Shown: positions 29,471 to 32,367 of the stretch, piece after piece
Layout of the letters: each line of letters begins with the position of its first letter
How positions within the stretch are numbered: the stretch's first letter is position 1
NCBI RefSeq assembly: GCF_013267195.1
Contig: NZ_CP053941.1
Coordinates: forward strand, 868,001-932,000
Reading direction: 5' to 3'
Source of the DNA: Halorubrum salinarum
GTDB taxonomy: Archaea > Halobacteriota > Halobacteria > Halobacteriales > Haloferacaceae
DNA length: 64,000 bases
Program-made: the position numbers and the translations under genes
The notes under the pieces: generated by a model
The model's database searches: none
Told to the model about the DNA's origin: nothing
Seen by the model: the letters and a program-made list of their open reading frames with translations, nothing else

Positions 29471-29477
29471 TTTTATG
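29471..29477 (+). promoter_or_regulatory. TATA-like promoter of osmC-type gene
   Basis: TTTTATG lies 25-31 nt before the ATG at 29502, flanked by GC-rich sequence; the position fits a leaderless transcript. Confidence 0.55.
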
Positions 29478-29501
29478 CGCCCTCGCCCGCTAACGCGGTC
29501 G

Positions 29502-29960
29502 ATGAGTGACGCCAACGCGACGCAGCGGATGGTAGTGCGCGGCGAGAGCGACGGCGAATCCGCGTTCGTCGCCCGGGCCCGCGACCACGAACTGGTGATG
29601 GACGACCCCGAGTCGATGGGCGGCGACGACGCCGGCGCGATGCCGATCGAGTACCTGCTCGCCGCTTGGAGCGGGTGCCTCGACGCGACGGTCCGCGCCG
29701 TGGCGCCGGACTTCGACCTCGACGTGGAGGGCGTGGCGGTCGAGGTCGCCGGCGAGTTCGACCCGCGCAAACACCTCGGTCACGCCGAGGAGCCCCGAGC
29801 GGGCTACCAAGGCGTCGAGGCGAGCGTCGACGTGGACTTCGCCGGCGAGGTGGCCGACGACACGCTCGCCGAGTTCACCGCCGCGGTCGAAGAGCGGTGC
29901 CCCGTGAGCGACAACCTCGCGAACGAGACCGCGACCGATGTGACGCTCCGGCGGGACTAG
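29502..29960 (+). CDS. OsmC-family protein
   Basis: A 152-residue OsmC/Ohr-fold protein. The family hallmark around the first active cysteine is seen in PIEYLLAAWSGCLDATVRAVA (Cys about 63) and the second cysteine in EERCPVSDNLANET (about 137). Such proteins reduce organic or lipid hydroperoxides or bind small thiols. The ATG at 29502 has a TATA box at the right distance. It precedes the tRNA cluster that lies on the other strand. Confidence 0.9.
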   Translation: MSDANATQRMVVRGESDGESAFVARARDHELVMDDPESMGGDDAGAMPIEYLLAAWSGCLDATVRAVAPDFDLDVEGVAVEVAGEFDPRKHLGHAEEPRAGYQGVEASVDVDFAGEVADDTLAEFTAAVEERCPVSDNLANETATDVTLRRD

Positions 29961-30033: not shown

Positions 30034-30109
30034 TGGGCCTTGCCGGATTTGAACCGGCGATCACTCCGTTATGAGCGGAGGGCTTTGAACCAGACTAAGC
30101 TAAAGGCCC
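30034..30109 (-). tRNA. tRNA with CAU anticodon, probably tRNA-Ile2
   Basis: A 76-nt cloverleaf: acceptor GGGCCUU/AAGGCCC with discriminator A, anticodon arm CUCCG-CUCAUAA-CGGAG, and T arm GCCGG-UUCAAAU-CCGGC. The anticodon is CAU. Initiator tRNA is excluded because the anticodon stem lacks the three G-C pairs. Elongator tRNA-Met of haloarchaea such as Haloferax carries an intron, which this one lacks. U12-A23, C29-G41 and A73 fit isoleucine identity, so the agmatidine-modified tRNA-Ile2 is favoured. Elongator Met remains possible. CCA is not encoded. Confidence 0.85.
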
Positions 30110-30153
30110 GCGTCGATTTCGGGTACACGAGCGACGTTCTTTAGATTACCGCA

Positions 30154-30618
30154 TTACCCCGACCGGAGGTCGTCGAGAACCGTCTCAAGCCGATACTCCG
30201 CGTGCCAGTTGACGTTCGCGCGGTTGTCGTTGGCGGCGGGTTCGTACCGGATCGCGGTCGTCGTCGATCCGGCCTCCTCGATCGCGATCAGGTAGATCTG
30301 CTCTTTCCTGACGTTCAGGGCGGCGAAGTAGTCGATCTCCCCCTCGTATCCCGATCGCTCGTATCCGTCGCTTTTCGTGCGGACGCTTCTGGTTCTGAAC
30401 TCCACCGCACCGTCGCGTTTACTGTCGTACGCGGTTTTGACTTGGATCCGGTGGAAGTCGCCGCCGACCTCGGCCACGAGGTCGTACGGCTCGTTGTCGA
30501 ACGCCGGCGTGAGCACGGAGACGTCCCGAGCGACCAGTTCCGCGATGACGATCGCTTCCGTCGCCTGTCCGCGCTTCTGTGGTTCCTCGAGTCGGTCGTA
30601 CTGCGCGAGACGCGACAT
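30154..30618 (-). CDS. PD-(D/E)XK nuclease of the group I intron-associated type
   Basis: A 154-residue small nuclease-fold protein. KRGQATEAIVIAELVARD holds E21, PYDLVAEVGG holds D46, and FHRIQVKTA supplies Q59-x-K61. This is the E...D...QxK layout of the PD-(D/E)XK family that includes homing endonuclease I-Ssp6803I (PDDEXK_11). No intron surrounds it. It is a free-standing gene between two tRNA genes, with 49 nt to tRNA-Asn upstream and 44 nt to the CAU tRNA downstream, all on the same strand. Codon use is slightly less GC-rich than its neighbours, hinting at transfer. Confidence 0.85.
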   Translation of the reverse strand: MSRLAQYDRLEEPQKRGQATEAIVIAELVARDVSVLTPAFDNEPYDLVAEVGGDFHRIQVKTAYDSKRDGAVEFRTRSVRTKSDGYERSGYEGEIDYFAALNVRKEQIYLIAIEEAGSTTTAIRYEPAANDNRANVNWHAEYRLETVLDDLRSG

Positions 30619-30667
30619 ACGAACGGCTGCGTCGCTATCGTACAAAACGAGCGGCCGAACGAAGGGA

Positions 30668-30776
30668 CGCCGAAGCCAGGACTCGAACCTGGGACCGCCT
30701 CGTGACTGTGACGGCCGGGGGAGGTTCCGCCGAACGTCGTAACAGCGAGGCGCTCTACCAACTGAGCTACTTCGGC
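30668..30776 (-). tRNA. tRNA-Asn(GUU) with a 36-nt intron
   Basis: Exons: acceptor GCCGAAG/CUUCGGC, D arm GCUC/GAGC, anticodon stem CCUCG/CGAGG, T arm CCAGG/CCUGG, discriminator G. The 5' anticodon half ends CUGUUA, giving anticodon GUU (Asn). An intron occupies 30704-30739 between positions 37 and 38. The junction forms a textbook bulge-helix-bulge: central helix CUGU/ACAG, 3-nt bulges UAC and UCA, inner helix GACG/CGUC. The mature tRNA is 73 nt; CCA is not encoded. Confidence 0.92.
30704..30739 (-). other. tRNA-Asn intron (bulge-helix-bulge)
   Basis: A 36-nt canonical-position intron (37/38). It is cut by the archaeal splicing endonuclease after the second base of each 3-nt bulge, which restores the seven-base loop CUGUUAA. 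Confidence 0.88.
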
Positions 30777-30936
30777 TCACTTCCGCGTACTCGCGTCGTT
30801 TTGATATGGCTTTCGTTTCCGCCCGACGGAAGCGGATCGGCGGGACGCGAGGGTGCGAAACGATACCGCGGAGGACAGGTCTCGCGGGCGCCGATCCGAC
30901 CGACACGTTTTCGGCCGGACCGCGAGACCGTTCGGT

Positions 30937-32367
30937 ATGGACGAGTTGGAGGCGGTGCTGTCGCGGGTCCGCGAGCGGGTCCTCCCGGAGCCGGCGGAAC
31001 GCGAGCGCCTGCGGGAGACGGCGGCGACGCTGACCGACCGGACCCGCGAGGCCATCGACGACCTCCCGGTCGACGCCGACGTGGTCCAGGTCGGGTCGAC
31101 CGCGCGCGGCACGTGGGTCGCCGGCGACCGCGACATCGACCTGTTCGTCCGGTTCGACGCGGACCTCGACCGCGCCGAACTGGAGGAGTACGGCCTCGAA
31201 GTCGGCCACGCGGTCCTCCCCGACGGCCACGAGGAGTACGCCGAACACCCGTACGTGAAGGGGAGCTACGAGGGGTTCGACGTCGACCTCGTCCCCTGCC
31301 ACGACGTGGAGACCGCCGGGGATCTGGTCTCCGCGGTCGACCGGACGCCGTTCCACGACGCGTACCTCTCCGCGCGGCTCGACGACGACCTCGCCGCGGA
31401 CGTGGTGCTGGCGAAGGCGTTCCTGAAGGGGATCGGCGCGTACGGGAGCGACCTCCGCACCGAGGGGTTCTCGGGGTACCTCACGGAGCTGCTCGTGTTG
31501 GAGCTGGGCGGGTTCGTGCCGCTGGTCGAGTCGGCGCGGAGCTGGCACCCGCCGGTGGAGTTCGACCCCGAGGGGCACGCCGAGCGGACGTTCGAGGACC
31601 CGCTGGTCGTCGTCGACCCGACGGACCCGACGCGGAACGTCGCCGCGGTGCTGTCGGCGACGAACCTCGCGCGGTTCCAGCACTACGCCCGCGAGCTGCT
31701 CGCGGCCCCGAGCGAGAACCTCTTCGAGCCGGACGAGCCGGAGCCGCTGGACCCGAGCGAGGTGCGCGCGCACCTCAACCGGCGGGGGACGACGCCGGTC
31801 GCGGTCGTCTTCGACGCGCCCGACGTGGTCGACGACCAGCTGTGGCCCCAGCTCCGGCGGTCGCTGGACGGGATCGTCGGCGGGCTGAACGACCGCGGCT
31901 TCGACGTGCTCCGAGCGCGGGCGATGACGGACGCCGCGAGGGCGACGGAGGACGTTGGGCGGCACGGCGCGGAGAGGACGGTCGGACGCGGCGGCTCCGA
32001 CGGGGCGACGCGGGCCGCGCTGTACGCCGAACTGGAGGTGACCGAGCGGCCGGCCGTCGAGCGCCACGACGGGCCGCCGGTCGCGGTCCGGAAGCACGCC
32101 GCGAGCTTCTACGAGTCGTACGTCGACGACGTCGACCCGGACACCTACGGCCCGTTCATCGACGGGGACCGGTACGTCGTCGAGCGGGAGCGGGAGTTCG
32201 CCACCGTCCGGGAGTACCTGGAGAGCGACGCCGCGAGCGACGTGGCGCTCGGCGCGCAGGTGGAGCCGGCGTTCGACGACCGCGACGTGCTGGTCGGCGA
32301 GGCGGTCGCGACGCTCTCGCCCGCGTTCGGGCGGCCGCTCCGGGAGTTCTACGAGCCGCGGCCGTGA
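30937..32367 (+). CDS. cca: tRNA nucleotidyltransferase (CCA-adding enzyme)
   Basis: A 476-residue archaeal class I CCA-adding enzyme. The nucleotidyltransferase signature GSTARGTW (53-60) is followed by RDIDLF with metal ligands D66 and D68, and a third acidic residue in GFDVDLVP. LAKAFLKGIGAYGSDLRTEGFSGYL is the conserved archaeal-type segment. It adds CCA to tRNA 3' ends, none of which are genome-encoded in the tRNAs seen here. The ATG at 30937 is selected since homology starts there. It is divergent from tRNA-Asn. Confidence 0.95.
   Translation: MDELEAVLSRVRERVLPEPAERERLRETAATLTDRTREAIDDLPVDADVVQVGSTARGTWVAGDRDIDLFVRFDADLDRAELEEYGLEVGHAVLPDGHEEYAEHPYVKGSYEGFDVDLVPCHDVETAGDLVSAVDRTPFHDAYLSARLDDDLAADVVLAKAFLKGIGAYGSDLRTEGFSGYLTELLVLELGGFVPLVESARSWHPPVEFDPEGHAERTFEDPLVVVDPTDPTRNVAAVLSATNLARFQHYARELLAAPSENLFEPDEPEPLDPSEVRAHLNRRGTTPVAVVFDAPDVVDDQLWPQLRRSLDGIVGGLNDRGFDVLRARAMTDAARATEDVGRHGAERTVGRGGSDGATRAALYAELEVTERPAVERHDGPPVAVRKHAASFYESYVDDVDPDTYGPFIDGDRYVVEREREFATVREYLESDAASDVALGAQVEPAFDDRDVLVGEAVATLSPAFGRPLREFYEPRP

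Follow-up and report, generated by a model that had tools for sequence, protein, structure and literature searches.

The window considered here is a stretch of 64,000 nucleotides from the genome of Halorubrum salinarum, and within it three genes lie in a row on the minus strand. These are a tRNA-Asn(GTT) gene at 30668-30776 (61.1 bits against the Rfam tRNA model), which is the putative protected target discussed below; a gene at 30154-30618, recognized from its open reading frame, which encodes a PD-(D/E)XK nuclease of 154 amino acids; and, downstream of the nuclease, a tRNA gene with a CAU anticodon at 30034-30109 (found by tRNA prediction, including Rfam), whose sequence indicates that it is probably a tRNA-Ile2 rather than a tRNA-Met. 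The first-pass annotation had described a nuclease gene between a CAU tRNA and an intron-bearing tRNA-Asn on a single strand, and this is the arrangement found; the range that it gave, 30034-30776, is in the right place but covers the whole cassette, of which the nuclease gene is only a part. On one side of the cassette is an OsmC-like gene (29475-29960) and on the other, divergent from tRNA-Asn, the gene for the CCA-adding enzyme, a tRNA nucleotidyltransferase (30853-32367).

The tRNA-Asn gene is interrupted at 37/38 by an intron of 36 nt (30704-30739, minus strand), as delimited by comparison with intronless Halorubrum tRNA-Asn genes. ARAGORN misses the gene when run without its intron option and reports the 36-nt intron when run with it. 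The intron folds as a canonical bulge-helix-bulge (BHB; z -3.4), with a 4-bp central helix, CUGU/ACAG, flanked by two 3-nt bulges, and once spliced, the sequence is identical to that of the intronless tRNA-Asn in related species. Both marks of an archaeal BHB tRNA intron are therefore present, namely a BHB at 37/38 and a tRNA that is restored by its removal. A group I intron had not been visible on first inspection, and Rfam likewise gives no such match in the window; as the nuclease reading frame is also free-standing, a group I intron-encoded endonuclease was ruled out.

The nuclease belongs to the I-Ssp6803I family, as had been proposed from the sequence alone. It matches PF11645 with an E-value of 5e-34 (117.7 bits against a cut-off of 26.1) and I-Ssp6803I itself (PDB 2ost) with a phmmer E-value of 4e-6; NCBIfam has no model for it. 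When its AlphaFold model (pLDDT 87) was compared with solved structures using Foldseek, I-Ssp6803I was the best match (E 2.8e-10, TM 0.72), followed by archaeal Hjc resolvases (E about 1e-3). The catalytic E, D, Q-x-K pattern is present, and E21, D46, Q59 and K61 are invariant amongst 25 homologues drawn from all clades. The gene is under purifying selection in the clade found beside tRNA-Asn (dN/dS 0.04-0.22), and the genome of the window has only one PF11645 copy. The nucleases found beside tRNA-Pro are longer (approximately 384 amino acids, as at L203 of genome G028 and other such loci) and appear by eye to contain three tandem PF11645-like repeats, of which Pfam detects two stretches; the catalytic residues seem to be kept only in the first.

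Of 391 haloarchaeal genomes, 192 encode a PF11645 protein, and no match above the cut-off was found outside the Halobacteria in 295 sampled genomes of the phylum. In loci drawn mainly from the best-scoring matches, the gene adjoins a tRNA gene (or, once, is contained in one) in 95 of the first 99 and in all of a further 20. Usually (92/99) a tRNA on the same strand is immediately upstream of the nuclease, this being tRNA-Asp in 54 cases, tRNA-Asn in 22, tRNA-Pro in 15 and tRNA-Lys in one. At two loci the tRNA is downstream (an intron-bearing tRNA-Lys at L137 and a tRNA-Ser at L128), at one the nuclease is inside a tRNA-Lys intron (L021) and at one only a 3' fragment of tRNA-Pro is found (L107); the other three loci belong to a divergent outgroup clade. 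In the second set there are seven more tRNA-Lys genes with an intron and two tRNA-Arg(TCT) genes with one, so that the tRNA types linked to these nucleases are Asp, Asn, Pro, Lys and Arg. For a genome with about 50 tRNA genes, adjacency by chance is roughly estimated at a few percent, and a chance association was accordingly rejected. Conservation at many unrelated loci with no link to tRNA targets had been named in the first-pass annotation as grounds for abandoning its reading; the loci are indeed many, and nearly all members of the main family are linked to tRNA, each clade to its own. Divergent PF11645 proteins at L025, L026, L027, L240, L243 and L244 have no tRNA nearby, and this clade may have a different function. 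The adjacency to tRNA-Ser(TGA) at L128 (genome G306, 143 bp) and a nuclease 48 bp upstream of tRNA-Gln(TTG) at L242 (G066) are single cases.

A tree of 108 nucleases is grouped by the adjacent tRNA, with the Asn nucleases as one clade, the Lys nucleases as its sister, and further groups for Pro and Asp. The tRNA labels change only six times on this tree, compared with 46.9 times when they are shuffled, while host families are intermixed within the Asp clade. That nuclease clades track the type of tRNA while the host families mix is characteristic of horizontal movement to a single type of site; spread to an allelic site is apparent both from this pattern and from the scattering of a tRNA-Pro allele on the tree of its flanks, described below.

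The Asn locus can be compared directly amongst 47 Halorubrum genomes, as the first-pass annotation had advised for relatives with and without the nuclease. Intron and intact nuclease occur together in 19 of these and both are absent from 22 (Fisher 2.6e-7, a value which, like the other family-level p-values given here, counts genomes as independent). The remaining six are discordant: three have the intron without an intact nuclease (G001, G012, G002), and three have an intact-looking nuclease beside a standard intronless tRNA-Asn (G021, G023, G061). Thus, tRNA-Asn is interrupted in 19 of the 22 Halorubrum genomes with an intact Asn nuclease, and the three exceptions count against the explanation that we favour below. 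In G060 and G302, too, an Asn-type nuclease stands beside intronless tRNA-Asn alleles that are shared by nuclease-free relatives. Amongst intronless Halorubrum with some trace of the nuclease, the gene is broken or truncated in five of eight (G014, G022, G030, G371, G065), as against one of 20 with the intron. At empty sites, an intronless tRNA-Asn is followed directly by the CAU tRNA, as is seen at 17 Halorubrum Asn-Ile2 sites; patchy presence and matching empty sites at the same locus, the pattern expected of homing, are hence both found here. Tandem tRNA-Asn copies occur at L176-L179, one with and one without an intron at L177-L179 and both with an intron at L176, and decayed, reversed pieces of the nuclease lie between the copies at L176 and L177. 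The anticodon stem-loop of tRNA-Asn also switches within single genera, between CCACG-CTGTTAA-CGTGG, CCTGG-TTGTTAC-CCAGG and others (G302, G171, G085 and more), several positions changing together.

These observations bear on the two readings of the nuclease that had been offered at the outset. That it is a domesticated host enzyme, of the repair or Holliday junction type, which chances to sit in tRNA operons would be in keeping with purifying selection and with the Hjc resolvases as next-best structural matches, but I-Ssp6803I is a much better match, the gene is absent from half of the genomes, and remnants, truncations and empty sites occur within one genus. Patchy presence, decay, remnants and loss leave a domesticated repair enzyme without support, and we regard it as scarcely credible. 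The same four observations, together with the tRNA link and the clade-specific choice of tRNA, support the other reading, that of a selfish nuclease settled in a tRNA locus.

Many haloarchaeal tRNA genes are followed, about 80-150 bp downstream, by a repeat of their last ~22 nt (the T-arm and 3' acceptor strand), in some cases with an inverted copy between; examples are L253, L137, L269, L265 and many tRNA-Asp loci, and control repeats of the 5' end are rare. Such fragments near many of the tRNAs concerned might be taken to mean that the loci are remnants of plasmids or viruses that used tRNA 3' ends as attachment sites and carried the nuclease as cargo. We think this very improbable: the repeats are equally common at loci without the nuclease (12/20, compared with 27/60 with it), the insert at the Halorubrum Asn locus consists of one small gene and lacks these repeats, and attachment at the 3' end leaves introns and recoded anticodon stems unexplained.

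The association of a nuclease with an altered tRNA is seen in four tRNAs. In two genera other than Halorubrum, tRNA-Lys has an intron in all nine genomes with the nuclease and in two of 14 without it (p 7e-5), and the tRNA-Arg beside the nuclease carries an intron at L266 and L269. At L021 a complete nuclease reading frame (L021:1451-1977) lies within the tRNA-Lys intron, whose fold is BHB-compatible; the arrangement corresponds to that of I-Ssp6803I in its group I intron, except that splicing here depends on proteins. It was the sole case, in a search for long introns, of a nuclease inside an otherwise missing tRNA.

With tRNA-Pro there is recoding in place of an intron. Halorubrum has two forms of tRNA-Pro(TGG), 75% identical, present as one copy per genome and at one syntenic locus in nearly all. 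The alternative form is found in all eight Halorubrum genomes with a Pro-type nuclease (p 4e-5), and none of the 31 genomes with the standard form has such a nuclease; G033 has the alternative form and a truncated remnant of the nuclease. Fifteen genomes share the alternative allele without a single difference. When the two groups are compared on an Fst-like measure, the tRNA itself scores 0.98 and each 60-bp bin upstream, even the one next to the tRNA, about 0, so tRNA-Pro is swapped in place between undifferentiated flanks. On the tree of the flanks the alleles are dispersed, with 14 changes against a mean of 12 after shuffling.

For tRNA-Asp there are two anticodon-stem alleles, CGACC/GGTCG and CAACC/GGTTG, and two nuclease clades, of which clade A adjoins the former and clade B the latter at 49 of 51 loci (p 5e-5 by permutation within families); a polymorphism in the acceptor stem does not track the nuclease clade. 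In families f1 and f4, all eight hosts of clade B have the CAACC allele, compared with four of 47 nuclease-free genomes (p 4e-7). Clade A sits by the commonest tRNA-Asp allele, where no clear protective change is seen; in family f7, where both alleles are common, CGACC occurs in 17 of 18 clade-A hosts as against 11 of 25 (p 0.001-0.004), which suggests a protective role in that family only. In one genome (G124, C1:670953-670975) the anticodon stem of a tRNA-Asp copy reads CAACC...GGTCG, with an A-C mismatch; this form may be an intermediate step from one allele to the other.

The most serious competitor, which we nevertheless consider unlikely, is passive co-inheritance, in which the nuclease owes its place beside tRNA genes to something unconnected, such as an insertion hotspot, and is transferred with the tRNA as one linked block by ordinary recombination. 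Linked genes do move jointly, and Halorubrum alleles are highly mobile (11-14 changes on flank trees). However, the tRNA-Pro swap ends at the 5' end of the tRNA, and passive movement would predict neither the specificity of each clade for one tRNA nor a correlation with the anticodon stem but not with the acceptor stem. Moreover, the dependency at Pro and Lys is one-sided, in that altered tRNAs without a nuclease occur and a nuclease without an altered tRNA is not seen, as is predicted for a nuclease that needs a resistant target. Independent-pair tests confined to well-supported branches go nearly all in one direction, with too few pairs for significance, and the occurrence of altered tRNAs without a nuclease means that they may also have other causes.

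This asymmetry also resembles that of a toxin and its antidote, and the changes are in or near the anticodon arm; the nuclease might then cut the anticodon loop of tRNA molecules, with the altered tRNA as antidote. Yet mature tRNA-Asn is identical with or without the intron, and is thus unprotected by it, so that protection must act on DNA or on the precursor. This speaks against a toxin that works at the RNA level, as do the fold and family, which are those of DNA endonucleases, and we judge a toxin of this kind highly unlikely.

Our preferred explanation, which we hold to be likely, is that these proteins are tRNA-gene homing nucleases, each of which cuts its own tRNA gene and spreads with a resistant version of it, a combination of homing and 'cleave and rescue'. 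Each clade would be dedicated to one tRNA gene (in the window, tRNA-Asn), and would bind the ordinary gene, as double-stranded DNA, at its anticodon stem-loop region and cut it there, the cleavage and the exact target being what the comparative data lead us to infer. Repair by recombination with the donor would then install both the nuclease gene and the resistant tRNA gene of the donor. Resistance would be conferred by a BHB intron that interrupts the target at 37/38 in the case of Asn, Lys and Arg, at little cost because the intron is spliced out, and by a recoded sequence in the case of Pro and one Asp clade. The tRNA-Asn intron of the window is on this explanation probably part of the element, a point missing from the first-pass annotation. 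A broader version, to which we incline with less assurance, is that nuclease and resistant target form class-wide natural tRNA-gene drives that have created or spread many haloarchaeal tRNA introns and odd anticodon-stem alleles.

It is a long-standing question why archaeal tRNA genes have introns, mostly at 37/38. A concrete driver is offered here, in that the intron would interrupt the site cut by a nuclease resident in the same genome, and the two would be transferred jointly. According to an idea of Randau and Soll, as presented in PMC4390854 and PMC3293823, archaeal tRNA genes that are disrupted withstand integrating elements, namely plasmids and viruses. Protection by tRNA introns at the DNA level is common to that idea and to ours; there it concerns the integration of plasmids and viruses, whereas in the haloarchaea the intron or allele goes with one particular nuclease gene. 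The nuclease clades, each accompanied by tRNA alleles that are putatively resistant or sensitive to it, also provide natural variants from which specificity might be worked out. A search of the open-access literature, which was not complete, found no prior report of the pairing of nuclease and tRNA.

Several known systems are similar in part. I-Ssp6803I of Synechocystis, the founder of PF11645, shares family, fold and the conserved E, D, Q and K positions, and is likewise linked to a tRNA gene whose anticodon loop is interrupted. It is, however, encoded inside a self-splicing group I intron of tRNA-fMet, whereas the haloarchaeal gene is usually free-standing beside the tRNA, with a protein-spliced BHB intron or with a recoded tRNA and no intron, and involves five tRNA species. 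The mobile archaeal rRNA introns are also archaeal introns that bear homing endonucleases, and L021 is their direct tRNA counterpart, but their enzymes are of the LAGLIDADG family and their host gene is rRNA, as opposed to PF11645, tRNA and a position mostly outside the intron. In collaborative homing, and with the free-standing homing nucleases of phages, a free-standing nuclease similarly promotes the transfer of an adjacent intron or region to a target from which it is missing; the haloarchaeal system differs in residing on cellular archaeal chromosomes, in its putative tRNA target and in the proposed resistance by recoding of the target gene itself. Finally, in synthetic cleave-and-rescue (ClvR) a nuclease directed against an essential gene is linked to a recoded, uncuttable copy. 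The haloarchaeal pairs suggest a natural counterpart of such drives on essential RNA genes, which differs from ClvR in being natural and archaeal, and in that the recoded copy would take the place of the target, at the target's own locus, by homing.
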